DNA of 64,000 nt from NCBI RefSeq assembly GCF_003024155.1, contig NZ_CP028136.1:1674001-1738000 (forward strand). Reading direction: 5' to 3'. This stretch comes from Christiangramia fulva. Its GTDB lineage: Bacteria; Bacteroidota; Bacteroidia; Flavobacteriales; Flavobacteriaceae. The notes under the pieces are model-generated. The model had not been told where the DNA came from. It worked only from the letters and a program-made list of their open reading frames with translations, and did no database searches. Shown here in pieces: positions 17,238 through 35,429 of this stretch (within the stretch, counting starts at the first letter, position 1; every line of letters starts with the position of its first letter). Both the position numbers and the translations under genes were made by a program.

Positions 17238-17267
17238 AAAAAGCTCTCCATTTCTGAAGAGCTTTTT
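17238..17267 (-). terminator. Former tRNA-Leu terminator, now left of the island
   Basis: AAAAAGCTCT (17238-17247) pairs with AGAGCTTTTT (17258-17267). Read on the minus strand it gives a stem followed by a T-run, directly after the tRNA-Leu 3' fragment. It probably ended the tRNA transcript before the island inserted. Confidence 0.7.
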
Positions 17268-17319
17268 GTGCGGGCGAAAGGACTCGAACCTTCACACCTC
17301 GCGGCACTAGATCCTAAGT
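17267..17319 (-). repeat. attL: 53-bp tRNA-Leu 3'-end fragment
   Basis: This stretch is identical over 53 bp to 35377-35429, which is the 3' part of the intact tRNA-Leu gene (anticodon loop to discriminator). To the left the two copies diverge at base 17266; to the right at 17320. It is a tRNA remnant that cannot form a full tRNA, the hallmark of site-specific integration into a tRNA gene. Confidence 0.95.
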
Positions 17320-17423
17320 TTTCTAAAAATTTTGCAGAAAAACATTTAATATATTTAAAATCAATTAATTAGAGCATTTTGTATTTTACATAATATCATA
17401 AAATATCATTTAAAATGGCAAAA

Positions 17424-17444
17424 TGTTGTACCTATGTTGTACCT
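17424..17444 (+). repeat. Left-end tandem TGTTGTACCT motif (candidate integrase arm site)
   Basis: TGTTGTACCT occurs twice, separated by one A, 105 bp inside the attL repeat and just upstream of the integrase gene. The identical 21-bp unit in the same orientation is at 35314-35334, 42 bp inside the right end. Paired copies near both ends fit arm-type binding sites for the recombinase or its accessory factor; this role is inferred. Confidence 0.7.
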
Positions 17445-17482
17445 AAATGGATTATCTTAGAGTGGAAGTAAATCATTAAACT

Positions 17483-18697
17483 ATGAAATCTACTGCCTCT
17501 ATTACTCTTAGAAAAAAAGCAAATAAAAATGGCCTTTATCCCCTAGCTATCAGGATCACAAAATTTAGAAGATCGGCATATCTATACATTGGGCATTATA
17601 TTGATTTAAAATACTGGGATGAGGCCAAATGTTTGGTAAAAAAAAGCCATCCATATGCAACACGGTTAAATAGTCTATTGCTAATTAAATTAGCAGAGAC
17701 TAATAAATTTCTTCTTGAATTGCAATCCGAAGGAAAGGATTACTCTGCTAATCAGATTAAAAAAGAAATTACTTATAAAAATGGTAACAGTAATTTTTTC
17801 GATGTTGCAGATGCACATCTGAATGAACTTAAAATCAATAGTAAATTTGGAAGACATTCTGTAGATAAAGCAGTTATTGGACATATAAGGCGGTTTCATA
17901 AATCAAACCTGTTATCCTTCCAGGATTTGGATGAAAATCTCCTTAAAAAATATATGGCCTACCTAAGGAATACTCCAAAGATTTCAGAACGGACCATTGC
18001 TAACCATTTGGTGCTCATTCGGCTTTTATTTAACAAGGCTATCCGAAAGGGCATGGTTGATCGCAAATTCTATCCTTTTGGCAGAGATAAGATAAAAATA
18101 AAATTTCCTGAAGCAGGGAAGATTGGATTAACCCGGGAGGAGATAAAAAAAATAGAGAAAATGGAAGACCTTACAAAGGAAGAGCATCATGCTCGAAATG
18201 TTTGGCTTTTTAGTTTTTATCTTGCCGGAATCCGCATAGCAGATGTTTTGAAAGTCCGCTGGAGTGATATTTATGATAATAGGATTCATTATACAATGAA
18301 CAAAAATTCTAAACTAGTCTCACTACAGCTACCCGATAAAGTTCATGGGATTTTAAAAGATTACATAAAAGATAAGAGAGATGAAAATGATTATATTTTT
18401 CCAGAATTAAAAGTGGTAAGCTCTAAGGATAAGAAGAAACTATTTGACAAGTCTAAACGGGCAAATAGAAATATCAATGCTCACTTAACCAATATTGCCT
18501 CAAGAGCTGGGATTAATAAAAAGTTAAGTATGCATATTGCCCGTCACAGTTTTGGCCATATTGCGGGGGATAAGATTCCAATCCAAATGCTTCAAAAATT
18601 ATACAGACATTCCTCAGTTACCACCACTATGATGTATCAGTCTTATTTTATAAATAATGAAACAGATAAAGCATTAAATAGTATTGTTGATTTTTGA
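17483..18697 (+). CDS. int: Tyrosine recombinase / integrase (phage-integrase SAM-like, Bacteroidota type)
   Basis: 404 residues. An Arm-DNA-binding-like N-terminus (TASITLRKKANKNGLYPLAI) leads to a SAM-like core-binding domain (about 105-205) and the catalytic domain. Catalytic residues are visible: Arg251 (AGIRIADV), His351-x-x-Arg354 (HIARHSF), His376 (RHSSV) and nucleophile Tyr385 (MMYQSY). It sits 163 bp inside the attL repeat, reading inward. It most likely integrates and excises this element at tRNA-Leu. ATG at 17483 leaves a sensible N-terminus. Confidence 0.95.
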   Translation: MKSTASITLRKKANKNGLYPLAIRITKFRRSAYLYIGHYIDLKYWDEAKCLVKKSHPYATRLNSLLLIKLAETNKFLLELQSEGKDYSANQIKKEITYKNGNSNFFDVADAHLNELKINSKFGRHSVDKAVIGHIRRFHKSNLLSFQDLDENLLKKYMAYLRNTPKISERTIANHLVLIRLLFNKAIRKGMVDRKFYPFGRDKIKIKFPEAGKIGLTREEIKKIEKMEDLTKEEHHARNVWLFSFYLAGIRIADVLKVRWSDIYDNRIHYTMNKNSKLVSLQLPDKVHGILKDYIKDKRDENDYIFPELKVVSSKDKKKLFDKSKRANRNINAHLTNIASRAGINKKLSMHIARHSFGHIAGDKIPIQMLQKLYRHSSVTTTMMYQSYFINNETDKALNSIVDF

Positions 18698-18798
18698 TTC
18701 TGAACATTTCGAATATCTAGCTTTCTCAGGATTTTTTTAATTTAAAATAAAACCACATTTAAGGGACGCTAAGATTTATTCAGATTAAAAAATATTTC

Positions 18799-18829
18799 CC
18801 GTTTTATGTAAAACGGCAAAAAAATTGTA
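18799..18829 (+). promoter_or_regulatory. Palindrome overlapping a sigma-54-like promoter upstream of the regulator gene
   Basis: CCGTTTTA-TG-TAAAACGG (18799-18816) is a perfect 8-bp dyad. It overlaps CGGCAAAAAAATTGTA (18814-18829), which keeps the sigma-54 layout: GG and G(T) separated by 10 bp, with GGCA and TTG matching TGGCAC-N5-TTGC. The gene starts 58 bp downstream. This could allow autoregulation of the sigma-54 regulator, but the -12 GC is imperfect. Confidence 0.4.
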
Positions 18830-18886
18830 TCTCCTTTATTTTCCTTTAAATTCCTTTCTTTGTAATAACTTTCCGATTAAAATAAA

Positions 18887-20227
18887 ATGAAAAAGACCAT
18901 TCTTATTATTGACGATGAAAAGGATATTCTTAATATGCTTTCCAGAATTATTGAACTTGAAGGATACAATGTCTTCAAAGCACCGACAGGTAAGGAGGCT
19001 ATAAAATTATTCAAAAAGGAAAGAATTCATGTAGTGATTACCGATGTTAAATTACCCGATATTTCAGGGATTGAATTGGTAAATACGTTTAAAGAGATCA
19101 ATAAGGCAGCAGAGATCATTTGTCTTACTGCGTATGGCAAGATTGAAGATGGGGTAAAGGCCATAAAACAGGGAGCCTTTGACTATCTGGTAAAGGGAGA
19201 TGATAATAAGAAAATCCTGCCACTTCTAAGCAAGGCCTATGATAAAGCCGAATTACAGTACAAAATTTTACGACTTAAATCTCAAATTTCCGAACAATTT
19301 GGTTTTAATAGAATCATAGGTAGCTCCAAACCTTTAAAAAATGCCATTGAAATGGCAAAAAGGGTAGCTCCAATGGACACCACAGTTCTAATATTAGGTC
19401 CAACCGGGTCTGGTAAAGAGGTGTTTTCAAGAGCAATCCATTCTGAAAGTAATAGAGCAACAGAAAGTTTTTTAGCCATTAATTGCAGTGCTCTTGGGAA
19501 GGATCTTCTTGAAAGTGAACTTTTTGGCCATAAAGCGGGGGCTTTTACCGGAGCTATTAAAGATAAACCAGGCCTGTTTGAAGAGGCTCATTTAGGAACC
19601 ATATTACTAGATGAAATTGGTGAAATGGATCTTGAACTTCAGGCGAAGCTTTTGCGTTTTCTTGAGGAAGGAACCTTTATTCCGCTTGGAGAATCGCGGG
19701 AGAAAAAAGTAGATGTTAGAGTGATATCTGCGACGAATAAGAATCTTCAAAAAGCAGTAGAAGAGGGAGCTTTTAGAGAAGATCTTTATTATCGCCTTTC
19801 AGTCTTTACTATTGATTTACCAGGCCTGGATCAACGAAAAAAAGATATTCCAGCTTTAGCCAATTACTTTGTTAAAAATATTAGCCTAAAAGCTAATAAA
19901 AATATTAAAACAGTCTCCAAGGACTTTATTCAGGCCCTTCAAGAGCATCATTGGAAGGGAAATATTAGGGAATTGCGAAATATTATTGAACGCTCCATCA
20001 TTCTAGCTAATGAGGAAAAACTTACCGCTGATTTGCTTCCATTTGATTTTCTTTTAAACAGCAATCCTGGACTTTCTACTGGTCTCTATAAATTAAAGGA
20101 TGTTGAAAAAGAACATATTCGGAATCTCCTAAAATACACGAAAGGAAATAAAACAAAAACTGCAGAACTTTTAGATATTGGTCTTACTACTCTTTACAAT
20201 AAGGTTAAAGAATATGAGCTAGAATAA
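18887..20227 (+). CDS. NtrC-family sigma-54-dependent response regulator
   Basis: 446 residues: a receiver (IDDEKD, phospho-acceptor Asp53 in VITDVKLPD), then an AAA+ domain with Walker A GPTGSGKE (171-178), the sigma-54 contact loop GAFTGA (218-223) and Walker B (ILLDEIGEMD). A Fis-type helix-turn-helix closes the protein (KTKTAELLDIGLTTLYNKV). It activates transcription by sigma-54 polymerase; rpoN is on this chromosome at 59193-60650. It lies in the island ahead of trkHA and kdp, and the island kinase at 30195 is the natural partner. A good hairpin terminator follows, so it is probably a single-gene transcript. Confidence 0.92.
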   Translation: MKKTILIIDDEKDILNMLSRIIELEGYNVFKAPTGKEAIKLFKKERIHVVITDVKLPDISGIELVNTFKEINKAAEIICLTAYGKIEDGVKAIKQGAFDYLVKGDDNKKILPLLSKAYDKAELQYKILRLKSQISEQFGFNRIIGSSKPLKNAIEMAKRVAPMDTTVLILGPTGSGKEVFSRAIHSESNRATESFLAINCSALGKDLLESELFGHKAGAFTGAIKDKPGLFEEAHLGTILLDEIGEMDLELQAKLLRFLEEGTFIPLGESREKKVDVRVISATNKNLQKAVEEGAFREDLYYRLSVFTIDLPGLDQRKKDIPALANYFVKNISLKANKNIKTVSKDFIQALQEHHWKGNIRELRNIIERSIILANEEKLTADLLPFDFLLNSNPGLSTGLYKLKDVEKEHIRNLLKYTKGNKTKTAELLDIGLTTLYNKVKEYELE

Positions 20228-20250
20228 TAAGTCTTCACTTTCTGCAAAGA

Positions 20251-20278
20251 CCCTTCAATTTCTGAAGGGTTTTTTTTT
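20251..20278 (+). terminator. Rho-independent terminator after the sigma-54 regulator
   Basis: CCCTTCA (20251-20257) and TGAAGGG (20263-20269) form a 7-bp stem followed by nine T residues. Confidence 0.9.
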
Positions 20279-20508
20279 AAAAGATTTTAATTGGTAATTT
20301 TTTTATTCTGAAGAACAGTCGGTTGGAGGTGACTAAGGTTTGTTGGTACGGAGGTTGACATAAGGTTTGAAGAATTTTTTATGGGATAAGATTTAATCAA
20401 TTCCTTTTTCCTGAGCTATGTATTTTATCCCAAATCTTTCTTTTTAAACCAATCATGTTTTAAGGTAAAAAAAGAAAGTGCCTAAAATCCTTTTTACCAG
20501 TACTGAGA
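20279..20508 (+). promoter_or_regulatory. trkH leader with competing inverted repeats
   Basis: This 230-bp stretch upstream of trkH holds TGGGATAA/TTATCCCA (20382-20389 with 20425-20432), then CTTTCTTTTT/AAAAAGAAAG (20436-20445 with 20469-20478) and GGTAAAAA/TTTTTACC (20464-20471 with 20491-20498). The last two share bases 20469-20471 and cannot form together. That fits a switching leader, though AT-rich sequence produces such pairs by chance. Confidence 0.3.
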
Positions 20509-22068
20509 ATGTTGCGAAGTATAATTAGACAAATTGCAAGCCTCCAAATATTACTTGGAATCGTAATGATTATCCCGGGAATCGTTTCTGTTATATATAG
20601 AGAATGGTACTCTCTCCTGGGATTTGTAATTTCTGGTCTTATAGTTAGTGGTATAGGTTTTCTAATATATAAAAGTCTTAAAGGTGCACCTGATCCTGCA
20701 CATAAGGAATCTCTGATAATTGCAGCACTAGGTTGGCTTATGATCATCATTTTAGGCGGAGTACCCTATTTTATTATTGCTCATATAACACCCTTAAATG
20801 TGATGCAATCTTTCGTGCCTTTGGGAGAGACTTATGTTTCAAGTTTAATGAATTTCAGAAATCCTTTACATTGTATTTTTGAGAGTACCAGTGCCTTTAC
20901 CACTACAGGTTTAACTATGGCATACCATGAGCCTTCAGTGGGGTATTCCGTATTATTTTATAGATCTTTTTCTCAATGGGTGGGTGGTGCAGGCTTTATT
21001 GTCATGGCATTGGCTATTTTCAAGCAAATCCCAGGGCAATCTGCTGTTTTATTATATGGTTCTGAAGCTAGCGGAACAAAAGTTCGAAGTAATGTCATCC
21101 AAACCGCCAGGGCAATTTGGAAGGTTTACCTCCTGGTAACTGCGTTTTCTTTCCTGTTTATTTTTATAGGAACTTATTTTATTTTACCAGATTATCCTTT
21201 GGGAAGGAATATTTTTGATGCTGTTAATCACTCGATGGCTGGCCAATCCACTGGCGGTTTCAGCGTATTGGATGATAGCATTGCTGGTTACCATTCAGCA
21301 AAAATGGATGCCTTATTTATTCTCCCAATGCTACTTGGAGGGATGTCTATTCCTTTTTTATTCAGAATTATCTTTTTGAAAGATTTTAAAGAGTTCTGGT
21401 ATGATATACAAACGCGGGCTATCCTTTTGGCAAGTATTCTTGGAAGTGTTGTACTCTCTCTTTTTTTAATTGGCTCGGGTGGAGTTGTTTCGCCCTGGCG
21501 AGAAGGCATCTTTCAGTTTATAAGCGCTTTGACCACGACTGGCTGGCAAACTTCTGCCATTGGCTCCTGGGATGATGCTCCTGTGCTTTTTATTGTGGTC
21601 ACTGCAATGGTGGTAGGTGGTGCCGCCGGTGCTACGGTTGGCGGAATTAAAATTATAAGGGCTCTATTACTTCAAAAGGGATTGAGATGGCATATCAATA
21701 AAATCTTTTTAAGTAAGAACACTGTAAAAACAATAAAATTCAACGGCAAATTACTCTTACCTAATGAAATGAACAGAGAGCTTGCCAAAACAGGTATGTT
21801 CGTTTTGATGTACCTTTTGTTTGTCTTCATTTCTACTATAGTCACTCTTTACTTAATGAAAGGAGATTTTGGGCTTGCAGATGCCCTTTTTGAATCTGCG
21901 TCGGCTCAGGGAACAGTTGGACTCTCCTCGGGGATTACAGATCCGTCAATGTCCAGTGGTTTGGAATTGGTATATATTTTTCAAATGTGGAGCGGGAGAA
22001 TAGAAATTATTCCCATTTTAGTCGTAATACGGTTGTTTTTATACGGAATGAAACCTAGAAAAATTTAG
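20509..22068 (+). CDS. trkH: TrkH-family potassium channel/transporter subunit
   Basis: 519 residues with four pore repeats. The selectivity-filter segments are all visible: TTTGLT, STGGFS, TTTGWQ and GTVGLSS. Hydrophobic helices fill the rest, as in TrkH/KtrB proteins. It moves K+ (or Na+) across the inner membrane under control of a TrkA-type subunit, whose gene starts 5 bp after this stop. The ATG at 20509 gives the expected short N-terminal helix. It is island cargo, next to but separate from the Kdp operon. Confidence 0.93.
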
Positions 22069-22073
22069 AAAGT

Positions 22074-22733
22074 ATGAATATAATAATAATTGGTTCTGGC
22101 AGAACCGGAAAGCATGTTATAGAATCTGCGATCCAGGATAAGAATGAAGTTTGTGTAATTGAAAAAAATAAGGAAAGGGCTAATCAAATTGCTTCAACCT
22201 ATGATTGTGTAGTAATTCATGGAGATGCCACTCATTTAAATGTTTTAAATGAAGCGAACGAAGTACAGGCAGATGCCATTATTGTTACCACTGACGATGA
22301 TGCTGTAAATGCCCTGGTTATCTTACTGGCAAAACAACTAAAGATCAAAAGGCTGGTGAGCTCTGTGAACAACGATGATCTTTTACCCGTTTTCGAGCAA
22401 CTCGGGATAGATACAGTAGAAAGCCCTTACAGACTTAATGGTAAATACCTTTACCGAGCAGTTCAAGGTCCCGGGGTGAAAGAATTCCTTGACCTGGGGG
22501 ATGGCTTTGAGCTTTTGGAAATGCTGATTGAAAAAGGCTCGCAAATAGAAAATATGTACATCAAAGATATGATGAACGAAAAAATTCTTCCAGCAGATAC
22601 ACGGGTAGTTTTGATAAAACGTAACAACAGGATTTTGGTGCCGGAAGGAGATACTAAAGTTGTTCAAAACGACCTCCTTGTATTATTGTCAAGAAAAGAT
22701 GATGTTGAGGCCGTAAGTAAGATATTCAAATAG
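22074..22733 (+). CDS. trkA: TrkA potassium uptake regulatory subunit
   Basis: 219 residues, a one-copy TrkA: RCK-N Rossmann domain ([12 protein letters not shown], acidic residue in [14 protein letters not shown]) and a C-terminal RCK-C domain (about 130-215). It is co-transcribed with trkH (5-bp gap) and should gate that channel by binding NAD(H)/ATP. A hairpin terminator 30 bp downstream ends the trkHA unit. The chromosome carries a second TrkA-like gene at 14321, so the cell has at least two RCK subunits in this region. Confidence 0.93.
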
Positions 22734-22762
22734 ACACCATAATCCTTTCAGATAGTAAAAAG

Positions 22763-22788
22763 CCCTTCAATATTTGAAGGGTTTTTTT
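22763..22788 (+). terminator. Rho-independent terminator after trkHA
   Basis: CCCTTCAA (22763-22770), loop TAT, TTGAAGGG (22774-22781), then seven T residues. The stem sequence nearly matches the one after the sigma-54 regulator gene. Confidence 0.92.
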
Positions 22789-23042: not shown

Positions 23043-23141
23043 ATGGAATTTCTATTAGGCTTGGCCATGTTGATACTCTGTATCGTTGGCTTTATCATTT
23101 TATTCAAATCTATCGATTGGTTTGATCAACTAATTCAATAA
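23043..23141 (+). CDS. 32-residue membrane peptide of the kdp operon
   Basis: ATG at 23043 opens a 32-residue frame with one hydrophobic helix (about 3-22, LLGLAMLILCIVGFIILF) and an IDWFDQL tail. It is separate from KdpF, which is encoded 400 bp further on. Its clean single-helix design and position at the head of the operon suggest a real small subunit or regulatory peptide of the Kdp complex, but the family is not one I can name with certainty. Confidence 0.6.
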   Translation: MEFLLGLAMLILCIVGFIILFKSIDWFDQLIQ

Positions 23142-23156
23142 CTAACCTTTAAAGTC

Positions 23157-23540
23157 ATGCTAAATCATAAAGATTCAAAAGATCTAATTCTTATCGAGTT
23201 TCCGGAAATGGTAAAAGAAAAGAAAAACTTTGCCCAAATAACAAGCTTGTTAGCGGCAGAAACCAATGATGCCATGAAGTGGGGAGTTGTGGAAAGGGCC
23301 AAACAGGTGCTCAATTTTACCCATTATCTATTTCTTCACAGCAATAAATACGTACAACTGCTTTTACTGGATCAGTATTACAAAAAGCTGAATTGCGTGA
23401 GGTGCAATTTGAGTTTTCAAAATTTTACCAGAAATCATTCAGGTGCTGGAGGAAATGAAAGTCAGTTGCCATTTCATATTTCCTATCGCCTGCGCAATGC
23501 GAAGAGTGTCATGCAACTAACCTTAATAACTATAAAGTAA
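23157..23540 (+). CDS. Unknown soluble protein in the kdp operon (DUF7674-like start, possibly frameshifted)
   Basis: 127 residues as read. The first 65 (EFPEMVKEKKNF, ERAKQVLNFTHYLF) resemble the small helical DUF7674-type proteins seen near Bacteroidota kdp genes; this similarity is from memory. After about residue 66 the composition changes to Cys/Arg/Asn-rich sequence. Other frames then read more protein-like, for example VLQKAELREVQFEFSKFY (frame beginning 23354) and ILPEIIQVLEEMK further on. A frameshift or decay in the 3' half is therefore possible. It is 15 bp after the 32-residue peptide and 5 bp before kdpF. Confidence 0.5.
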   Translation: MLNHKDSKDLILIEFPEMVKEKKNFAQITSLLAAETNDAMKWGVVERAKQVLNFTHYLFLHSNKYVQLLLLDQYYKKLNCVRCNLSFQNFTRNHSGAGGNESQLPFHISYRLRNAKSVMQLTLITIK

Positions 23541-23545
23541 AAGTT

Positions 23546-23623
23546 ATGATCATTTTACTCATAATATCGGTAATCACCCTTGGGTATTTGTTTTATGCCA
23601 TTGTTAAACCAGAAAAATTCTAA
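23546..23623 (+). CDS. kdpF: KdpF, small subunit of the potassium P-type ATPase
   Basis: 25 residues, one hydrophobic helix ending in LGYLFYAIVKPEKF, which is the KdpF signature (YLxYAIxxPExF). It starts 5 bp after the preceding stop and ends 3 bp before kdpA, the expected place. KdpF stabilises the KdpABC complex in the inner membrane. Confidence 0.9.
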   Translation: MIILLIISVITLGYLFYAIVKPEKF

Positions 23624-23626
23624 ACG

Positions 23627-25321
23627 ATGTATCAATCAGAAATTATTGGCGCGGTTCTCATTTTTTTACTGGCAATAATATTTGCAATCCCTTTAGGAAG
23701 GCTGATCTCAAAGATCTTTAAGGGAGAAAAGAACTGGATGGGCTTTATGGCGCCTCTGGAGAAATTTATATTCAAGCTCGGGGGTGTGGATCCCACCAAA
23801 GAAATGGACTGGAAGCAGAATATGAAGGCAATGCTCGGTTTAAACCTGGTTTTCTTTATTGTTGCCTTTCTAATCCTGTTGTTTCAGGGGCTCATAAAAT
23901 TCTGGAATCCCGTAGGAATAGGAAACTGGGAACCAACTCTGGCTTTCAATACGGCTATCAGTTTTATGACGAACACCAATCTGCAGCATTATTCTGGGGA
24001 AACCGGGGCCAGTTACTTTACACAGCTCGCAGTTTTTGCCTGGCTGCAGTTTGTAAGTGCAGGAACAGGAATCGCTGCCTGTGGTTTGCTGTTTCGGGGA
24101 TTGGCGAATAAGAGCAGCAAGGCTCTCGGGAATTTTTACGACCTGTGGCTTAAATCCTGTACAAGAATACTTCTGCCAATAGCGATGATCCTGTCTTTGA
24201 TCCTTAGTATTAACGGAACCACTTCAAATTTTGAAGGACTGCAGAAGGTTACTACTCTTGAAGGAGATACCCAGATGGTGGCTGGTGGGCCTACTGCTCC
24301 CATGGTCTCTATTAAACAACTGGGAACCAATGGGGGAGGGTATTTTGGTCCTAACTCCACACATCCGTTCGAAAATCCGAATTATCTCACCAACATGGCA
24401 GAAAATATTGCCATCATACTCATTCCCATGGCCCTGGTTTTTGCCTTCGGTTTCTTTATGAGAAGGCGAAAATTAAGCTATTATCTCTTTGGGGTAATGT
24501 CGCTGCTCTTTATAGCCTTTGTGTATATCTCTTCTTCACAGGAAGTTGCGGGTGATCCAAATTTTGAGGCTATGGGGTTACATCAGGCCGCAAATATGGA
24601 AGGCAAGGAAATGAGGTTTGGGCCGATTGCTTCCTCTTTGTGGGGAGTTTCTACCACTGCAACTTCCAATGGTTCGGTGAACTCTATGCATGATAGCCAT
24701 ACACCAATTTCGGGAGGTGTGTTTCTCCTGGATATGTTTATCAATGCTGTTTACGGTGGAGTAGGTGTAGGTTTTATTAACTTCTTCGTCTTTCTGGTCA
24801 TTGCAGTATTTATTGCCGGCCAAATGATTGGGAGGACGCCAGATTTTCTTGGGAAAAAACTGGAGGCCCGTGAGATCAAAATAGCTGCGATCGTGGTGAT
24901 CTTACACCCACTTCTCATCCTGGCAGGAACTGCGCTTTCCAGCTATCTCCTTACCGAGGATCCGCGTTTACCCTGGCTTAACAATCCCGGTTTTCACGGA
25001 TTTTCTGAAATGATGTACGAATTCACATCGGCTTCGGCAAATAACGGATCTGGTTTTGAAGGACTGGGCGATAATACTCCTTTCTGGAATATAGCCACCG
25101 GTCTTGTAATGTTATTCGCGCGATTTCTTCCTATTATTGGACCGCTTGCAATTGCAGGTTCTCTATCCAGTAAAAAGTTCGTGCCTGAATCGGCCGGGAC
25201 TCTTAAAATGGACACTCCGGCATTTGCAGCTGTTTTATTAGCCGTGATACTGATCATTTCTGCCCTTGCCTTTTTCCCTGCCCTCGCTTTAGGACCACTG
25301 GCAGAATATTTTACCATTTAA
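23627..25321 (+). CDS. kdpA: KdpA, K+-translocating subunit of the Kdp ATPase
   Basis: 564 residues, normal KdpA length, with about ten membrane helices. It is a superfamily-of-K-transporters pore protein. Filter-region segments are visible: [31 protein letters not shown] and [12 protein letters not shown]. It forms the selective K+ channel that hands ions to KdpB. It is 3 bp after kdpF and 10 bp before kdpB, within one operon. The kdpFABC segment looks somewhat less AT-rich than the integrase and trkH genes of the same island. Confidence 0.97.
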
Positions 25322-27375: not shown

Positions 27376-27957
27376 ATGAAAACTTTAAGAAATATACTCG
27401 TCCTTTCATTTCTTAGTCTTCTGTTATTCGGAATTGCCTATCCACTGGCGATGACTGCAGTAGGACAGGCAATAGCTCCAAACGCTGCCGATGGAAAGCC
27501 TATTTATCGAAATGACCAACTTGTTGGCTTTGAAAATATCGGCCAAAACTTTAAAAGCAGCCAGTATTTCTGGGGAAGGCCTTCTGCCGTAGATTATGAT
27601 GCATCTTCTACGGGAGGTTCAAATTATGGCCCCACCAATCCGGAATTTCTCGCTCTTGTGCAGCACCGAATCGACACACTAATGGCTTATCATCCATCCA
27701 TAAAAAAGAGTGAAATTCCAGTGGAGCTGGTAACGGCTTCAGGGTCGGGATTAGATCCTCACATCAGCAATGAGGCAGCCTTACTTCAGGTGAACAGGAT
27801 AGCCAAACAACGCAATTTATCCAAAGAAGAATTAAAGAACCTTGTAGATGAACATACTGAAGGAGCTTTATTTGGAATCGCAGGTCCCGAAAATTATGTA
27901 AATGTTTTAAAACTCAATTTGTCTCTGGATGAACTGGAAAAAAATTCAAAAAAATGA
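27376..27957 (+). CDS. kdpC: KdpC, accessory subunit of the Kdp ATPase
   Basis: 193 residues: one N-terminal membrane helix (about 8-30) and a periplasmic domain with the KdpC motifs YFWGRPSAVDYDAS, SGGSNxGP-like TGGSNYGPTNP and GSGLDPHIS. It raises the ATP affinity of KdpB and bridges the subunits. The stop overlaps the start of the porin gene by 4 bp (ATGA), so the two are translationally coupled. Confidence 0.96.
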   Translation: MKTLRNILVLSFLSLLLFGIAYPLAMTAVGQAIAPNAADGKPIYRNDQLVGFENIGQNFKSSQYFWGRPSAVDYDASSTGGSNYGPTNPEFLALVQHRIDTLMAYHPSIKKSEIPVELVTASGSGLDPHISNEAALLQVNRIAKQRNLSKEELKNLVDEHTEGALFGIAGPENYVNVLKLNLSLDELEKNSKK

Positions 27958-29060
27958 AAAATTTAATCATAGCCGTTTTTACCATTTTTTCAGCAGGCGA
28001 GGTTCTGGCGCAGGAAGTGGAGGAAAGTAAAACAAGCTTAAAATTGTCGGGATATGCCGATGTGTATTATGCAAATTTCAGCAACGATATGGAACCTAAT
28101 GAATTCCAACCCTATACCACGGTGGCTCCCAGGGATGCAAGATTTGGGCTCAATATAGCCCAAACAAGCCTTGCATACACTTCAGAAAAAGTGAGAGGAA
28201 ACATAAGCCTGCACTGGGGTGATATCCCCCAGGCCACGTGGTCTTCAGAGTTTACCAACATACAGGAAGCAAATATTGGAATAAGATTAAAAGGCGACTG
28301 GTGGCTGGATGCCGGATTTTTTACCACCCATATCGGTACAGAGAGCTTCCTTCCAAAGAATAATTTCTTAAGCTCTACTGCTATCGCTACGTACAATGAA
28401 CCTTTTTACCAGGCGGGGGCGAAACTCAGCTATTCCGGTTCTGAAAAGTGGTATGGAGAGTTATGGGTAGTCAATGGCTACAATTACTTCCTTGATGTTA
28501 ATGATGCCAAATCGGTAGGAATTCTGCTAAGCTATAATTTTAATGATAATACCAGCCTTACCTACACCAATCTGTTTGGAAAGGAGTTGCCTTCGGGATC
28601 GGGCGATGATGCCTTCCGAACCTACCATAATTTATATCTGAATGCTCATTTCGCTGATAAGTGGTTCCTTCAGGTAGGGGGTGATATCGGAACACAGTCC
28701 CATTCGGGGCTCAGCACCCCAGAAGAGACTGCCATTATGTACAATGCTCTCGCTACACTGCGTTATCAGGTAAATGATAAATTATCTTTTACCGGAAGGG
28801 GAGAACTCTTCAATGATGAAAATGGTTTTATTAGCGGTTTGCTTCCTTCTTCCAATGATCGTCCTCAAGGTCTCGAAATGTGGGGTATCACCATGGGTTC
28901 CGAATTCCGGCCCATTGCACATGCTTACATCCGGGGCGAGACCAGGTTTTTACATCTCAATGAAGATATTAGCTTTTTTGAGGGTGATCTTGATCCTAAT
29001 AAAAGATGGGAAGTTCTTTTTACCATGGGCTATCAATTTGACAAATTGTTTGAACGGTAA
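27954..29060 (+). CDS. Outer-membrane beta-barrel porin of the kdp operon
   Basis: 368 residues with a signal peptide ending near residue 20 (VLAQE). The rest alternates polar and aromatic residues in strands ending with GYQFDKLFER, typical of a porin-like barrel (DUF1597/BBP2-type outer-membrane protein). Translational coupling to kdpC suggests it admits K+ or other ions through the outer membrane for the pump. That function is inferred from position; the substrate is not visible. Confidence 0.8.
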   Translation: MKNLIIAVFTIFSAGEVLAQEVEESKTSLKLSGYADVYYANFSNDMEPNEFQPYTTVAPRDARFGLNIAQTSLAYTSEKVRGNISLHWGDIPQATWSSEFTNIQEANIGIRLKGDWWLDAGFFTTHIGTESFLPKNNFLSSTAIATYNEPFYQAGAKLSYSGSEKWYGELWVVNGYNYFLDVNDAKSVGILLSYNFNDNTSLTYTNLFGKELPSGSGDDAFRTYHNLYLNAHFADKWFLQVGGDIGTQSHSGLSTPEETAIMYNALATLRYQVNDKLSFTGRGELFNDENGFISGLLPSSNDRPQGLEMWGITMGSEFRPIAHAYIRGETRFLHLNEDISFFEGDLDPNKRWEVLFTMGYQFDKLFER

Positions 29061-29070
29061 TTATTCAATT

Positions 29071-30192
29071 ATGAACGCACATTCACAACCTGATCGATTC
29101 CTCGAACTAATAAAGAAGCGCCGTAAAGGAAGCCTGAAAGTTTATCTTGGAATGATCGCAGGAGTGGGGAAAACGTACCGAATGCTTCAGGAAGCACATG
29201 AGCTCTTGCGACAGGGAGTGGATGTGCGTATAGGTCTGATTGAAACGCATAACCGGGAGGAAACACAGCGCCTTTTGAAGGGAATCCCTCAAATTCCTTT
29301 AAAGGAAACATATTATAAGGGAAAGGTCCTTACAGAAATGGATCTGGAAAGCATTATAGAAAGTCGTCCCGAGATCGTCCTGGTAGATGAGCTTGCCCAT
29401 TCGAACATTCCCGGCAGCCAAAACGAAAAGCGCTGGCAGGATGTAATAGATTTGCTGGAAGAGGGGATCAATGTTATCACCGCTTTTAATGTTCAACACC
29501 TGGAAAGTATGGTCGATCGTGTAGATAGCATTGCGGGAATCGAGGTAAAGGAAACTATTCCCGATCATTTTCTCAAGCATGCCGATGAAGTGGTAAATAT
29601 AGACCTTCCCGCTGAAGATCTAATAAACAGGCTAAAAGATGGAAAAATTTACCAGGGTGAAAGAATAGAAAGGGCATTGAACAATTTCTTTCAGCCGGAG
29701 AAAATTCTTCAACTAAGAGATCTGGCCCTAAGAAAAGTAGCTTCACTTGTAGAGAAGAGAATTGAAAAAAACTTGCCTCCTGATAACCGGTTGAAGCAGG
29801 AGCGTTTTATGGCCTGCATAAGTACCAACTTTGAAAGTGCTAAAAATATTATAAGAAAGACCTCTCGTGTCGCCGATTATTATCAGGCCGAGTGGTATGT
29901 ACTATATATCAAGACAACAGGAGAAGGAACAGAAAAAATAGATTTAAAACTTCAAAGAAAATTAATCAATAACTTTCAGTTCGCCGAAGAATTGGGTGCC
30001 AGGGTTATTACCGTTAAAGAAAATAATATTTCTCTTGCCGTATACCAAAAGGCTTTAGAATTGAAGATCACTAATATTGTAATGGGAAAGCCGCATTACA
30101 CTATTTGGAGGCAAATAAGGGGCAAAAATCACTTTGATAAATTACTTAAACGCCTCATAGATACAGATATAGATGTAATTATAGTTTTTTAA
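29071..30192 (+). CDS. kdpD: KdpD N-terminal sensor half with Usp domain (split KdpD)
   Basis: 373 residues from ATG at 29071. The frame stays open upstream but overlaps the porin gene, and this start gives the canonical KdpD N-terminus. The KdpD domain (about 20-230) has Walker A GMIAGVGKT (27-35) and Walker B with Asp106 (IVLVDELAHSN). A universal-stress-protein-like domain follows (about 250-373). The DUF4118 membrane, HisKA and HATPase parts are missing. A separate HAMP histidine kinase starts 3 bp later and presumably supplies kinase activity. KdpD of this split form is known in Bacteroidota. Confidence 0.9.
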   Translation: MNAHSQPDRFLELIKKRRKGSLKVYLGMIAGVGKTYRMLQEAHELLRQGVDVRIGLIETHNREETQRLLKGIPQIPLKETYYKGKVLTEMDLESIIESRPEIVLVDELAHSNIPGSQNEKRWQDVIDLLEEGINVITAFNVQHLESMVDRVDSIAGIEVKETIPDHFLKHADEVVNIDLPAEDLINRLKDGKIYQGERIERALNNFFQPEKILQLRDLALRKVASLVEKRIEKNLPPDNRLKQERFMACISTNFESAKNIIRKTSRVADYYQAEWYVLYIKTTGEGTEKIDLKLQRKLINNFQFAEELGARVITVKENNISLAVYQKALELKITNIVMGKPHYTIWRQIRGKNHFDKLLKRLIDTDIDVIIVF

Positions 30193-30194
30193 AG

Positions 30195-31976
30195 ATGAAA
30201 ATTAAAACCAAAATAATCCTTTCTTTCGGATTTTTATTCCTCATGATCATCCTTCTAGGATCGGTTGGAAGTTTTTACGTTAGGCAATTGGGAAACGATG
30301 CGGCAGAAATTCTGAAAGAGAATAACCGCAGTTTAATCTATATGGAAAATATAGATAATGACCTTGATGTAATTTTAAAACAAGTGACGGTTGATGATCA
30401 ATTACCTTCTTCTGAAATCATCCCAAATATTGAAGAGAATCTGGAACTTCAAAAGGCCAATATTACCGAGTTGGGAGAAAAAGGTCTCACCGCAGAATTG
30501 GAGAATTCTTTTGGTGCCTTGCTTGCCGCCATGGAGAACGGAAATATGGACCAGATCAAGAGGAATGTTTTCCAGGCAAAGCAGCTCGCCAGGAAAATCT
30601 ATAATTTGAATCAGGAGAAGATCCTGGTAAGAAATGAAAAGGTAACCAAAACGGCCAAAGAGGTGTACATCTATATCACCAGTGTGTCGTTTTGCGCTTT
30701 TGTCATCGCCTTCTTTTTTTCCATTGGAATGCCTGGTTATCTAATCAAACCCATTCAAAGGTTCAATGAAGCCATTAAGAAGATTGCTGCCGGTAATTAT
30801 AGCACACGTATTAAAATAAATAACAACGATGAATTTGGACAGCTTGGGAATTCTTTCAATTTCATGTCGGCTAGGCTGGAAGAATTTGAAAGCAGCAGTT
30901 ATTCAAAGATACTTTCGGAGAAAAAACGTCTTGATTCGGTGATCAATCAAATGAGCGAAGGAATTTTAGGGTTAGATGATCGCAAAAACATCATTTTTGC
31001 TAATAAAAAAATGCTTTCTCTTCTAAATGTAGAGGAATCAAAGGTTAAAGGTAAATATGCTCCCGATATTGCTGTTCATAACGCTCTTTTACATAATCTG
31101 TTAGGACCAATTATGATTAGCAATGGTAAATATTCAACGGAAAGTTCTCCTATTAAAGTTACTGAAAACAATATAGAGAAGCTTTTTTCAAAACAATATT
31201 TTGATATTACAACTACTGCAAATGGAGAATCCAATCTATTAATCGGACATGTAGTAATGCTTCATGATATTACAAATTTCGCTGAAAAAGACAGGGCTAA
31301 AACCCGTTTTATTGCCACTTTAAGTCATGAATTGAAAACTCCCGTTGCCGCAATAGAAATGGGAACCGATCTTTTAAAAAACAGGCAAACAGGAAATCTA
31401 AATGATGAACAGCAAAATTGGCTTGAAGTTATCAATAATAACAATCTCAGGATAAAAAATATTATTAATGAGATTTTAGAATTAGCACAAATTGAAAGCG
31501 GGAGTATTGAGATAAGGAAAGAAAAAATCAGACTGGGAAAAATTTTAGAACTGGCTGTCCAGGCGGTACAACCTTTTCTTCGGAAAAAAGATATTAAAAT
31601 TGAAGTAAATAATCCTACTGAAAATGTGATCCTGGAAGTAGACGGTCAGAAACTAAGTTGGGTCTTGAACAATTTACTTATCAATGCTATCAGATATGCT
31701 CCAAAATCATCCTTGATTTCGGTAAATACATTGCTTTCCGGCAAAGAAGTTAAAATTTCGGTCAGAGATGAAGGTAAAGGTATTACCCAGGAACAAAAAA
31801 ATAACATTTTTAAGCCTTTCTTTAAAGGGAAAAATAAAAATTCGAGCGGAACAGGTTTAGGGTTGGTAATTTCAAAAGAATTCGTAGAGGCCATGGGAGG
31901 AAAAATTGGAGTCACCTCTCAAATTAATGAAGGAGCTGAATTTTGGATAAAATTTAATATTGCGGATAATGAATAA
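30195..31976 (+). CDS. HAMP/PAS sensor histidine kinase partner of the split KdpD
   Basis: 593 residues. Membrane helices at about 7-30 and 158-180 bracket a short periplasmic four-helix sensor region. HAMP (about 180-235), a PAS-like domain (about 245-360), HisKA (TLSHELKTPV, His378) and HATPase_c (NLLINA, GTGLGLV) follow. It starts 3 bp after kdpD and its stop overlaps the apbE start. The first third resembles the kdp genes in base composition and the rest looks more AT-rich. Its receiver partner is probably the island sigma-54 regulator, since no receiver gene lies nearer. Confidence 0.92.
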   Translation: MKIKTKIILSFGFLFLMIILLGSVGSFYVRQLGNDAAEILKENNRSLIYMENIDNDLDVILKQVTVDDQLPSSEIIPNIEENLELQKANITELGEKGLTAELENSFGALLAAMENGNMDQIKRNVFQAKQLARKIYNLNQEKILVRNEKVTKTAKEVYIYITSVSFCAFVIAFFFSIGMPGYLIKPIQRFNEAIKKIAAGNYSTRIKINNNDEFGQLGNSFNFMSARLEEFESSSYSKILSEKKRLDSVINQMSEGILGLDDRKNIIFANKKMLSLLNVEESKVKGKYAPDIAVHNALLHNLLGPIMISNGKYSTESSPIKVTENNIEKLFSKQYFDITTTANGESNLLIGHVVMLHDITNFAEKDRAKTRFIATLSHELKTPVAAIEMGTDLLKNRQTGNLNDEQQNWLEVINNNNLRIKNIINEILELAQIESGSIEIRKEKIRLGKILELAVQAVQPFLRKKDIKIEVNNPTENVILEVDGQKLSWVLNNLLINAIRYAPKSSLISVNTLLSGKEVKISVRDEGKGITQEQKNNIFKPFFKGKNKNSSGTGLGLVISKEFVEAMGGKIGVTSQINEGAEFWIKFNIADNE

Positions 31977-32976
31977 AGCAAAATTTTTAAAATTTTTTAT
32001 TCCGTTGGTTCTTTTAATAATTACTGAGATTTTATTTCTTAATAAAAATTATAATAATCATTATATTACTTTGAAAGGGGATATCTATGGAACTTTTTAT
32101 TCTATCAAATATCGCTCTCATACTAATTTTCAAGAGGGTATAGATTCTATATTTTCTTCCATAGATAATGCCGTCAGCTATTTTAATCCAACATCAGAAA
32201 TCAGCATTTTTAATAAGAATGGCCAGTTTTTACATCCTTCGAAAATATTTCTGGAGCAACTGAATCGCGCCAGGTTTTATTATCAGAAAACACAGGGGGC
32301 TTTTGAACCCACCCTTTCTCCTATAATAGAAGCCTGGGGATTTGGTTTTAGAGCTGGTAATAAACCCACACCTTCACAGGTGGACTCTTTGTTGAACTTA
32401 GTTTCTTTTGAAAAAAATATTTATTTTAATGATACGGTGGTCAAAGCTGTTAAAAAGAACACAACCATTAATTTAACAGCTATGGGTGAAGGATTTACTA
32501 TTGATAAAATTGCTAAATATTTAGATACAAAGAAAATTCAGGATTATAAAGTCGAAATTGGAGGAGAAATTAAATGTCATGGTGTAAATGAAAAAGGTGA
32601 GATCTGGAGAATTGGTATTGAAAACCCAAATTTTAGTTTAGGAAAGGAGGAAAATAGAATCCTAAAAATTGTAAAGCTAGATGATGCTGCTATCAGTACA
32701 TCGGGAAGCTATAGAAAATTTTATTTAGATTCTACGGGACGCAGGCGTCCGCATATTATTGATCCAAAGACTGGGTATCCCGTTTCTCATAACTTGCTTT
32801 CAGCATCCATAAAATGTAAGAGCGCAGAAAAGGCCGATGCTATGGCTACAGCGTGCATGGTTTTAGGGCTTAGAAAATCTATTGACCTGATTAAAGCAGA
32901 TTCCGGATTGGAAGGTTTTTTAATTTATGACGATGAAACAAATACACTTGATACTTGGAAATCGGAAAATTTTTAA
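31969..32976 (+). CDS. apbE: ApbE, FAD:protein FMN transferase
   Basis: About 335 residues from ATG at 31969, which overlaps the kinase stop by 8 bp; a TTG three codons upstream is less likely. An N-terminal hydrophobic helix (about 8-27) without a lipobox Cys anchors it outside the cytoplasm. Family motifs are present: GGEIKCHG, AISTSGSYRKF, HIIDPKTGYPV and ADAMATACMVLG. ApbE attaches FMN to Thr/Ser of target flavoproteins such as NqrB/NqrC or RnfG. No obvious FMN-binding target is in the window, and its link to potassium uptake is unknown. Confidence 0.92.
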   Translation: MNKAKFLKFFIPLVLLIITEILFLNKNYNNHYITLKGDIYGTFYSIKYRSHTNFQEGIDSIFSSIDNAVSYFNPTSEISIFNKNGQFLHPSKIFLEQLNRARFYYQKTQGAFEPTLSPIIEAWGFGFRAGNKPTPSQVDSLLNLVSFEKNIYFNDTVVKAVKKNTTINLTAMGEGFTIDKIAKYLDTKKIQDYKVEIGGEIKCHGVNEKGEIWRIGIENPNFSLGKEENRILKIVKLDDAAISTSGSYRKFYLDSTGRRRPHIIDPKTGYPVSHNLLSASIKCKSAEKADAMATACMVLGLRKSIDLIKADSGLEGFLIYDDETNTLDTWKSENF

Positions 32977-33572
32977 AAGCAATCTTTTATAATCTCCAAA
33001 TTTTTTGTTGCTTCAGGTTTTTACTTTTACTATAACCGATTGAATTAATCAATAAATAAAGAGTTAGTATTTGTGGTCCAAAATGAGGAAGAGGTGTCCC
33101 GTATGTAGGACAACCTATAAAAATACTTGTTTTCTATTGGGACACCGGTGTCCCAATACGGGACAACATACCATTAATAAATAAACATTAAAACATTTAA
33201 ATGAAAAAATAATTATTATTTCGATAGGGTCAAAGTAAATTTTGCCAATTAACTTTCGGCTTCATCATTTTTACGGACTCTGTATTGGAATGGTAGTTTT
33301 AAGAAAAATGATTCAAAAAATGCTCCTAAAAAATTAACAAATAAGGACCTTCCAAGGATGTATCGGATTTATGAAATTTTGTATTTTTAAAAAGCAGCTT
33401 TTGAAAAAAAAAGTTACTCAAACAGGATCGAAATTTATAAAGTCTTCGACTTAGAAATTCCGACCCGTTTTCACCTTGACATGGTAAAAGAAGCTTGAGA
33501 GTTTAAGTTCCTTCGGATCAAACCTCAAGCCTCTTTCGGTTGATTTGACTTTCGCTTATTAAATCAATCGCC
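32977..33572. other. Long intergenic region with palindromes: candidate oriT / control region
   Basis: About 600 bp without a gene, between apbE and the mobilization genes. It holds a perfect 22-bp palindrome (arm ATTGGGACACC, 33136-33157) flanked by the related direct repeats GTGTCCCGTATGTAGGACAA (33094-33113) and GTGTCCCAATACGGGACAAC (33148-33167). An 11-bp hairpin with one bulge, GCTTGAG/CTCAAGC plus GTTT/AAAC, lies at 33493-33530, and TTGATTT/AAATCAA is near 33539-33567. These are typical of nick regions and relaxosome or repressor sites, and their place ahead of mobC-mobA supports an oriT here. Confidence 0.6.
33136..33157. repeat. Perfect 22-bp palindrome in the candidate oriT region
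   Basis: ATTGGGACACC followed at once by its exact reverse complement GGTGTCCCAAT. With no spacer it suits binding by a dimeric protein better than an RNA hairpin. Its right arm also forms part of the GTGTCCC...GGGACAAC direct repeat. Confidence 0.85.
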
Positions 33573-34058
33573 ATGAAGAAAAAACCCGATTCCCAGCTTA
33601 AGCTTTTCAAGCTTAAATTTCCTTTTGAAGAAACTGAAAATCCAAGAAAAAATCCTGACGCTCCAAGAGAGAATTCAACGTCTGAATTCAGTAATTCAAG
33701 ATGTGTGCCTGTGGACACAATCTTGATTGCTCCCGATGGTCGCAATGAAAAAAAGAGGTTTAGGGGGAAAGGTGATCTCGTTAAATTTCGATGCTCCTCC
33801 TTCGAAAAAAAATTATTGCTGATCAAAGCTAAAAAGAGCGGATTAACCCTTAGCGAATATTGCAGAAGAAGTGCTTTCGGATTAGAAATAACGGAAAGGC
33901 TTTCTGATGACCAAATTGCTATTTATAAAACACTGCTGCAATTCCACAACAATTTCAAATGGATCGGAAATATGTTTCGTCGGAAAGATCCTCGTCTTTC
34001 ATCTGCGGTTTATAAACTTGCAGAAGAAATTAAGTCTCACCTTCAAAAAATTGTATGA
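33573..34058 (+). CDS. mobC: MobC-like relaxosome protein (ribbon-helix-helix type)
   Basis: 161 residues. A polar, low-complexity first 65 residues precede a RHH-like segment (VKFRCSSFEKKLLLIKAKKSGLTLSEYCRRSAFG) of MobC/BmgB type, given here only in outline: strand VKFRCS, helices around EKKLLLIKAKKSG and LSEYCRRSA. Helical sequence follows to the end. Such proteins bind oriT and help the relaxase nick. The stop overlaps the relaxase start (ATGA), so the two are coupled. Confidence 0.8.
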   Translation: MKKKPDSQLKLFKLKFPFEETENPRKNPDAPRENSTSEFSNSRCVPVDTILIAPDGRNEKKRFRGKGDLVKFRCSSFEKKLLLIKAKKSGLTLSEYCRRSAFGLEITERLSDDQIAIYKTLLQFHNNFKWIGNMFRRKDPRLSSAVYKLAEEIKSHLQKIV

Positions 34059-34921
34059 TGATTGGAAAAGGAAAATCAATTAGTCATACCCGGGCCTCAA
34101 TGACTTATGGATGGAACCAGGAAAAAGAAGCCAAGGTAGTTTTTAAACAGGAACTCATCGGTGAAACACCTAAAGAGATCACAAAGGAATTTCAGGCCAT
34201 TCAAGAGCTAAATGAAAATTGCCAAAGAAACACTCTATCTTTTGTCTTAAGTCCTACTATTGAAGACGGTCAAAAACTTAGCAACAAACAACTAAAGGAA
34301 ATCTGTAAATCTTTCGTGGAGAAAATGGACCTGGGAGATCACCAGGCAATTGCCTTTGTGCATAAGGATAAAGAACATAAACATATCCATTTATACGTAA
34401 ACCGAATCAATTACCAGGGTCAGGCCTATAATGATAGTTTTATAGGAAAACGTAGCCAATTGATGGCTGAAAAGGTCGCCCTTGAACATAAGTTAGAAAC
34501 GGTAAAGGAGGTGCAAATGGAGAAGCTAATCAATCTAAAGGATATCCGTGCAGAGATCAAAAGAAGACATGATATTGCTTTAAAAAGTTTTCGGCCTAAC
34601 ACTTTTGAAAGATACCAGGAGGCCATGCACTGCAATGGAGTAAGAGTAATCCCTTGTATCAATAAAGCAGAGAAGCTGCAAGGATTTCGTTTTGAGTTTG
34701 ATAAATACAATTTAAAGGGAAGTGAAATTCACCGAAGCATGAGCATGGGCAACATTGCAAAACAACTGGATAAAAACCAGCAGCGTTACAATGAAATAGG
34801 AAAACAACTGGCAGCTAAAATGATCGGGAAAGGTCTGGACGCGGCAGGAAACATACCCCTTAAACTAGCCAAGGAGGTAATCAAGAAAACAATATCTAAG
34901 GGTATGGATTTGGGAATGTAA
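34055..34921 (+). CDS. mobA: MobA/VirD2-like relaxase (MOBP type)
   Basis: 288 residues; the start is ATG at 34055 or 34058. The relaxase domain has the metal-binding triad HKHIHLYVNRI near residues 109-119 and an upstream helix with DHQAIAFVHKDKEHK. The N-terminus (GKGKSISHTRASMTYG) carries the candidate nucleophile Tyr. It should nick oriT and pilot DNA into a recipient using another element's conjugation channel. The protein lacks a helicase or primase domain, as in small Bacteroidota mobilizable elements. Confidence 0.9.
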   Translation: MMIGKGKSISHTRASMTYGWNQEKEAKVVFKQELIGETPKEITKEFQAIQELNENCQRNTLSFVLSPTIEDGQKLSNKQLKEICKSFVEKMDLGDHQAIAFVHKDKEHKHIHLYVNRINYQGQAYNDSFIGKRSQLMAEKVALEHKLETVKEVQMEKLINLKDIRAEIKRRHDIALKSFRPNTFERYQEAMHCNGVRVIPCINKAEKLQGFRFEFDKYNLKGSEIHRSMSMGNIAKQLDKNQQRYNEIGKQLAAKMIGKGLDAAGNIPLKLAKEVIKKTISKGMDLGM

Positions 34922-34932
34922 ATCATAAGGAT

Positions 34933-35238
34933 ATGGCAAAAGTAGAAGAACTAATGGCACTGATGATCGACGAGATCAACAGGTATGAGCAGCTGATTAA
35001 AAAAATGGAAAAGCTGCAGCAGCAAAAAATAGAAATCGATGTAATAAAATTAGAAGAATTCCTAAAAGCTCATGAAAATCAAATGGAGCAGAGCAGAAAC
35101 ATTCTGGAAAAATTTCATCGAAAAATGGAAAAATTAATGGAGGATGCCAATGTATACCCGAAATGGGCGGTGATAGTGTTTATAATTTCTCTTTTAATCA
35201 ATTGCGGATTAATATTCTATATAATCATCCTGTTATAA
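34933..35238 (+). CDS. Mobilization-operon membrane protein with coiled coil
   Basis: 101 residues: a charged helical region (1-75) with heptad-like spacing of Leu/Ile/Met, then one membrane helix (about 78-100, AVIVFIISLLINCGLIFYII). It is 11 bp after the relaxase gene. Similar small coiled-coil/membrane proteins close the mob operons of other Bacteroidota elements; a role in linking the relaxosome to the membrane is a guess. Confidence 0.7.
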   Translation: MAKVEELMALMIDEINRYEQLIKKMEKLQQQKIEIDVIKLEEFLKAHENQMEQSRNILEKFHRKMEKLMEDANVYPKWAVIVFIISLLINCGLIFYIIILL

Positions 35239-35313
35239 AGCTATATACCTATTCATGAAATGAAATCGTATAGAATGAAGTTGAAAAAAATGGAAAATAA
35301 AAAAAATTAAAGT

Positions 35314-35334
35314 TGTTGTACCTATGTTGTACCT
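35314..35334 (+). repeat. Right-end tandem TGTTGTACCT motif (candidate integrase arm site)
   Basis: Identical to 17424-17444, in the same orientation, 42 bp from the right att repeat. Two TGTTGTACCT units separated by one A. Confidence 0.7.
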
Positions 35335-35340
35335 GTAAAT

Positions 35341-35366
35341 AAAAAAGCCGACTCGTAAAAGTCGGC
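35341..35366 (-). terminator. Island-supplied terminator for tRNA-Leu
   Basis: GCCGACT (35347-35353) pairs with AGTCGGC (35360-35366); on the minus strand the stem is followed by a T-run. It lies inside the element, replacing the chromosomal terminator left behind at 17238-17267. Confidence 0.8.
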
Positions 35367-35376
35367 CTTCTCTTGC

Positions 35377-35429
35377 TGTGCGGGCGAAAGGACTCGAACC
35401 TTCACACCTCGCGGCACTAGATCCTAAGT
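35377..35429 (-). repeat. attR: 53-bp direct repeat within tRNA-Leu
   Basis: Identical to 17267-17319. It covers the tRNA 3' half from the anticodon loop to two bases past the gene, so integration rebuilds a complete tRNA. Confidence 0.95.

Follow-up and report, generated by a model that had tools for sequence, protein, structure and literature searches.

A probable integrative mobilizable element with potassium-uptake cargo at a tRNA-Leu gene of Christiangramia fulva, whose genome lacks the core trkHA of its genus

We analysed a stretch of 64,000 nucleotides from Christiangramia fulva (contig NZ_CP028136.1; C1:1674001-1738000 of a one-contig, 4.38-Mb genome), hereafter the window; G-numbers denote genomes, the source genome being G000, and L-numbers denote DNA stretches compared with the window. 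Within the window, an 18.1-kb block of genes is bracketed by a 53-bp direct repeat at 17267-17319 and 35377-35429, which is exact and maximal, as the first-pass annotation of this DNA had proposed. The right copy, found by repeat search, supplies the 3' part of a tRNA-Leu(tag) that ARAGORN predicts intact on the minus strand (35378-35460), and the left copy, likewise on the minus strand, is a displaced tRNA-Leu 3' part forming an attachment (att) site. Just inside each end of the block lies a copy of TTGTACCTATGTTGTACC (plus strand, 17426-17443 and 35316-35333), the two being an exact pair. Allowing up to one mismatch, TTGTACCTATGTTGTACC has only these two matches in the 64 kb and none in 100 shuffles, and copies also occur near the ends of related elements; we read them as putative integrase arm sites. 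We consider it very likely that the block is an integrative mobilizable element (IME) inserted in the 3' end of tRNA-Leu, that its cargo serves potassium (K+) uptake, and that its host has lost the core trkHA genes of the genus.

From the integrase through the DUF6730 gene, every gene between the repeats lies on the plus strand. The tyrosine recombinase, or integrase (17483-18697; PF17293, PF13102 and PF00589), is followed by an NtrC-type sigma-54 response regulator (18887-20227; PF00072, PF00158 and PF02954), by the K+ channel subunit TrkH (20509-22068; PF02386 with 211.6 bits against a cut-off of 27) and by the regulatory subunit TrkA, which has a single TrkA-N/C unit (22074-22733; PF02254 and PF02080). 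Ahead of kdpF there are an open frame for a 32-residue predicted membrane peptide (23043-23141; MEFLLGLAMLILCIVGFIILFKSIDWFDQLIQ) and a gene for a 127-residue protein with no Pfam match (23157-23540), 35-37% identical to a frame ahead of kdpA in two Sinomicrobium. All four KdpFABC subunits are found together, namely kdpF (23546-23623), a 25-residue peptide (MIILLIISVITLGYLFYAIVKPEKF) directly ahead of kdpA and named from its position and shape alone, kdpA (23627-25321; PF03814; 8e-130 to the solved KdpA 6hra), kdpB (25332-27365; PF00122 and PF00702) and kdpC (27376-27957; PF02669). These are succeeded by an OmpL-like beta-barrel porin (BBP2; 27954-29060; PF07642), a KdpD sensor half without a kinase domain (29071-30192, with a proposed start at 29071; PF02702), whose best NCBIfam match is the KdpD-like non-kinase sensor NF038185 at 352 bits, under the cut-off of 550, a HAMP/PAS histidine kinase (30195-31976; PF00672, PF00512 and PF02518) and an ApbE-type flavin mononucleotide transferase (31960-32976; PF02424). 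An ApbE gene directly follows the kinase also in G146 and in a metagenome-assembled genome (MAG) of Allomuricauda. The right end of the element is taken up by a mobilization protein of the MbpA/NikA type (33573-34058; PF21983), a relaxase (34055-34921; PF03432 with 106.2 bits against a cut-off of 24.6) and a DUF6730 protein (34933-35238; PF20503). The genes named in the first-pass annotation are thus all present and open, KdpF included, and their order needs correction: the gene called mobC there and the relaxase lie next to the tRNA rather than near the integrase, the cargo begins with the sigma-54 regulator, ahead of trkHA, and the DUF6730 gene follows the relaxase.

Three defining features of an IME are present, viz., an integrase of its own, direct repeats at a specific site and a relaxase of its own. 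The integrase residues R, HxxR, H and Y, presumably the catalytic ones, align with those of the solved XerC-like structure 4a8e. No conjugation apparatus is present within the element, where 13 of the 14 main frames of at least 120 residues belong to other Pfam families and one, the 127-residue protein, is unmatched. The small mobilization protein passes the NCBIfam model MbpA (NF041418; 100.1 bits, cut-off 90), whereas the relaxase scores 94.4 bits against MbpB (NF041420), under the cut-off of 400, and its match to the MobP model is also under cut-off. A mobilization block of the same type is found in a second element of the source genome, located between repeats of a tRNA-Met 3' end (L091 4133-16558; G000:C1 about 3364132-3376557). 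The two blocks have 88% DNA identity over 2139 bp (33068-35204 in the window), their relaxases are 94% identical, and a DUF6730 relative follows the relaxase in L091 as well as in L083 and L080. The tRNA-Met element carries different cargo, viz., a TerC protein, a protein of the small multidrug-export family and a protein with an FGE-sulfatase domain; L091 also contains a partial extra integrase copy. Since the shared block starts 505 bp before the MbpA gene, we place the origin of transfer (oriT) ahead of that gene, probably in this lead-in at 33068-33572 on the plus strand, i.e., near 33.1-33.6 kb. No clear oriT hairpin was found in 32900-33640, which contains weak AT-rich palindromes only. 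Three TraG matches over the cut-off occur in the source genome; therefore conjugation helpers are possible, and a helper may reside in the same genome.

Comparison of the same tRNA-Leu site across the genus lends further weight to site-specific integration. In G004, G011, G013, G016 and G022 (9 kb covered in each) the site is of the empty type: the tRNA-Leu has one full repeat copy, it adjoins an M20 peptidase gene 87-89% identical to that of the window, and there are no integrase matches. The expectation that an empty site would retain a single repeat copy therefore holds in these five congeners, with the qualification that the sites of G011 and G004 are not clean. At the same tRNA-Leu, relatives of the integrase that are 71-72% identical are present in G021 and G003, where the repeat copies are about 27.7 kb and about 48.5 kb apart, respectively, and relatives that are 44-47% identical are present in G030 and G017. 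In all four, the M20 peptidase gene lies beside the site as in the window, in G030 as an 81-residue piece inside the stretch covered. Integrase relatives of 52-56% identity lie beside a repeat copy in G007 and G035, for each of which one end was covered. The cargo differs among these loci. For example, G030 carries AcrB-type efflux with an outer-membrane efflux domain, cation efflux, MerT and ArsR, G003 (L080-L082) carries a glycoside hydrolase of family 32, a TonB-dependent receptor and a sugar kinase, suggestive of fructan-type sugar use, and G021 carries an ABC-2 transporter. The G003 island also contains an integrase remnant. In G017 (L083) the 3' part of the intact tRNA is a variant that is also present in G003, and the form of the window is found at the far left end; of the 12 other congener loci checked, 7 have the latter form without mismatch. 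We read the swapped tRNA ends of G017 as the mark of site-specific integration by an element bringing along a tRNA end of its own. Judged from sequence, one integrase family is found with differing cargo at the same tRNA-Leu, and the mobilization block is shared with the tRNA-Met element.

The distribution of kdp points in the same direction. KdpB is encoded by the source genome alone among 24 congeners (0/23 others) and by 4 of 397 genomes sampled from the family, the source genome included. An ordinary chromosomal kdp locus whose position next to a tRNA and an integrase is a coincidence might be considered, since the kdp gene order of the window is the common one in related loci and G052 and G039 have this order with no integrase or mobilization matches in the stretch covered. 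However, among the best 80 of 431 kdp loci, some of whose stretches end at contig ends, the integrase, TrkH and TrkA of the element are each found in none and the relaxase in one, and neither the absence of KdpB from the other congeners nor the exact tRNA-derived repeat fits such a locus. The whole block was sought at the same place in 23 congeners, its sharing by close relatives having been named at the outset as what would speak against mobility, and none has it. We therefore reject this explanation as very improbable and retain that of an IME with K+ cargo in tRNA-Leu, which the first-pass annotation had put forward and which the absence of KdpB from 23 congeners, the one-copy sites and the occurrence of the integrase family with other cargo all support.

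In the stretches covered for the same 80 loci, a relative of the sigma-54 regulator occurs in 70 and Kup in 10. KdpA of the element is 82-83% identical to that of two Sinomicrobium. In a tree of KdpA and KdpB from 32 sequences (26 of the 80 loci, five whole-genome matches and the window), the window joins Sinomicrobium with a support of 1.0, apart from G146, which belongs to the same family, and from Flavobacterium; the KdpAB of G362 and G173, of the same family too, are close to Flavobacterium fluviatile. The one locus of the 80 with a relaxase is an Allomuricauda MAG contig (JASBTS010000080.1; L127), whose kdp branches with G146 and Psychroflexus, away from the window. Because this kdp and relaxase locus falls in a separate KdpAB branch, kdp seems to have become linked to mobilization genes of this type on two or more occasions. 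We also looked, through the histidine kinase, for close copies of this cargo elsewhere and gave up this line: among the best 120 of 149 matches, obtained by scoring the 7992 candidates sharing most words, the nearest public relative is 66% identical.

The second part of our proposal concerns the trkHA genes that the genus otherwise possesses. Core TrkH is detected with 245-263 bits in 22 of the 23 other congeners, the exception being G023, a genome that is 67% complete. In G013, G004, G022 and G003, core TrkH has 498 residues and TrkA 449-463, and the trkH-trkA pair sits between aspC and menG (gene names assigned by eye). In the source genome, the gap between aspC and menG is 252 bp (G000:C1:2151318-2151577; L217) with no trkH-trkA between, and a DNA search of the genome with the whole congener stretch recovered the neighbours only. 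The source genome encodes the TrkH of the element and a 596-residue TrkH-like protein with an RCK partner (C1:216498) and no other TrkH; a match of this second kind is also present in 17 of the 23 other congeners. The element thus holds the only TrkH of the roughly 500-residue type in the genome. Its TrkH and TrkA are 25-27% identical to the core pair of the four congeners and are not the orthologous core Trk, so that any replacement would have been by a different kind of Trk. We infer that the TrkHA of the element stands in for the lost core trkHA, and the case, which is that of one genome, suggests that a basic housekeeping task, the uptake of K+, has passed to mobile DNA. Among seven kdp-bearing genomes, judged by score and length only, core TrkH is absent from G362, G173 and the two Sinomicrobium and is kept in G146, the Allomuricauda MAG and Psychroflexus.

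Further K+ genes lie outside the left repeat. On the plus strand these are a KdpD kinase half (12369-13535; DUF4118, HisKA and HATPase by Pfam), a KdpE-like response regulator (13522-14199; PF00072 and PF00486), for which the best NCBIfam match is KdpE at 227 bits, under the cut-off of 325, and a TrkA-type RCK protein (14321-15010; PF02254 and PF02080); on the minus strand, the K+ transporter Kup is encoded at 15017-16894 (PF02705 and PF22776). Classical KdpD/KdpE control is absent inside the element, where the KdpD half lacks a kinase, the kinase half and KdpE being outside at 12369-14199. Both the KdpD kinase half (E<=1e-30) and Kup (E<=1e-50) are confined to the source genome among the 24 congeners. 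Among the 397 genomes, five carry TrkH of the element type at a total of six other loci, and in every case TrkH is preceded on the same strand by a KdpD kinase half, KdpE and a frame of 94-116 residues; Kup follows the locus in G420. In the window, by comparison, the att site separates the KdpDE pair from TrkHA. The earlier statement of complete K+ acquisition moving as one unit accordingly goes too far, because this TrkHA type usually has such a KdpDE pair beside it and the pair lies here, together with RCK and Kup, outside the repeats. The left K+ module may be either a leftover of an older insertion at the same tRNA or a set of parts that arrived separately.

The first of these alternatives can be extended to an older and larger K+ island at tRNA-Leu, in which the KdpDE/RCK/Kup module on the left stems from an earlier insertion that has lost its outer repeat through decay, an explanation that we hold to be possible and place somewhat below even chance. 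The conserved pairing of KdpDE with TrkHA just described is in keeping with it, as is G146, where kdp, ApbE, KdpDE and TrkHA form one cluster (L100, L203 and L204) in the neighbourhood of transposases, a DUF5712 protein and a coupling protein; G146 has a second KdpDE-TrkHA locus as well (L236). The left side is also longer here than in congeners. The gene at -13634 to -12309, 29.6 kb left of the left repeat, has a match of 70-77% identity in 9 of 18 congener flanks at about 4-18 kb from the site, and a nearer gene (-3294 to -1468), 18.7 kb away here, has matches of 49-54% identity only, about 2-8 kb away, in 7 of the 18. Against an island of this kind, neither the rest of the window nor the 39 kb preceding it contains a further repeat copy, and the left part also contains genes unrelated to K+. 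A single larger element with an outer repeat left of the K+ flank was likewise considered and set aside, the outer copy not having been found in that 39 kb and the window.

The same flank bears on the present state of the element. It may formerly have been mobile and now be domesticated, its integrase and mobilization genes being recent remains and the block having become fixed since the host needs its K+ uptake after the loss of trkHA; we regard this as a tentative possibility, less than evenly probable, and its probability overlaps with those of the IME proposed here and of the larger island. The absence of core trkHA from the source genome and the restriction of the adjoining Kup and KdpD kinase half to this genome are consistent with domestication, whereas the open frames of the integrase, mobilization and cargo genes and the identity of the two 53-bp repeats speak against it. 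Returning to the IME with K+ cargo, we tentatively propose a course of events for which we claim less than an even chance: the element would have brought a non-orthologous TrkHA and KdpFABC, core trkHA would then have been deleted, and the element would have been kept for the K+ need of its host without a toxin-antitoxin system, and the adjoining KdpDE/RCK/Kup genes would belong to this reorganization of K+ uptake at a single tRNA hot spot.

Excision, transfer and regulation can be pictured from family knowledge and gene order. The integrase would recombine the 53-bp att site, using the arm sites at both ends, for excision and for insertion at tRNA-Leu, the relaxase and the MbpA-like protein would nick oriT, and the excised circle would be transferred by a conjugation system elsewhere in the cell. 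In the single co-directional K+ block, TrkHA would serve bulk uptake and KdpFABC scavenging. Control of this block likely falls to the NtrC-type regulator, the histidine kinase and the non-kinase KdpD sensor, the kinase, with the KdpD half as sensor of the K+ state, activating the regulator, which in turn would switch on kdp and perhaps trkHA.

Several observations weigh against parts of this proposal. With the sigma-54 consensus as pattern, promoter matches do not rise above chance: the strict pattern has 3 matches against 5.1 expected, none of them in the element, and the relaxed pattern has 43 against 39.7. One relaxed match lies ahead of trkH at 20344 and is no evidence at this chance rate, so that a sigma-54 promoter ahead of trkH or kdp was dropped as a candidate. 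No excisionase was recognised in the element, and the element was found in no genome but this one. As for the related loci, the genes next to the tRNA in G011 are phage-like by eye, and the intact tRNA of G004 (L087) has beside it a tandem pair of degenerate, partial tRNA-Leu ends; no relaxase match is present in the G021 element (32 kb covered), and the relaxase of G003 is split in two, with an internal stop in one of the pieces, so that not every related element is mobilizable. The TrkH of the element falls under the NCBIfam TrkH cut-offs (TIGR00933 with 209 bits, cut-off 331), though it is far above that of Pfam. The 596-residue TrkH-like protein and Kup remain outside the element, so that the host need not depend on it. 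Moreover, G146 has two TrkH of the element type and yet keeps the core type, which rules out that gain of such a TrkHA is always followed by loss of core Trk.

Elements of this general kind have been described before. NBU1 and MTnPi4 are Bacteroidota IMEs that reside in the 3' end of tRNA-Leu and, like the element described here, have a single tyrosine recombinase, and NBU1 has a MobP relaxase and is mobilized in trans by integrative and conjugative elements, according to the available text of a review (PMC5704250). The likeness to NBU1 is one of insertion site and gene types. The element differs in its cargo, K+ transport not being named in the section on IME cargo, and the word potassium not occurring in the main text, of that review as available (PMC5704250). 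The Allomuricauda contig JASBTS010000080.1 comes close in another way, with a regulator, kdpABC, porin, KdpD, kinase and ApbE beside DUF6730 and a 56% identical relaxase; its differences are that it has no trkHA, that its mobilization genes run in the opposite direction, that its KdpAB are of a separate lineage and that the contig is too short to include ends. The occurrence of kdp on DNA that can be transferable is also known from plasmids, where KdpA matches were found on 463 of 72,556 records (117 mobilizable, 111 conjugative and 235 non-mobilizable); these differ in being plasmid records and in that every plasmid KdpA is less than 60% identical to that of the element. A kdp operon is likewise part of the staphylococcal cassette chromosome mec (SCCmec) type II. 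The staphylococcal arginine catabolic mobile elements (ACME) IV and V also carry a kdp operon, as cargo of a site-specific chromosomal element as here; they lie in orfX with arc, plus opp in ACME V, and the available text mentions neither trkHA nor a loss of host Trk (PMC7029136). The first-pass annotation knew of no mobile element whose entire cargo was K+ homeostasis, yet K+ uptake on mobile DNA as such has precedents in kdp. IMEs in tRNA-Leu of Bacteroidota and kdp on mobile DNA are already known, and a mobile element with Trk plus Kdp cargo, together with the loss of core Trk, was not met in the open-licence literature as far as its text was available.

The traits that mobile elements carry are mostly regarded as optional, and the cargo here is both the bulk and the high-affinity uptake of the main intracellular cation. 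If the replacement proposed above is true, it would provide a testable case of an essential function that has moved onto a mobilizable element, and it would illustrate how a host might retain an element of this sort in the absence of an addiction module. The tRNA-Leu site, at which one integrase family is associated with cargo for K+, heavy metals, fructan-type sugar use and ABC transport, offers a system for studying cargo exchange.

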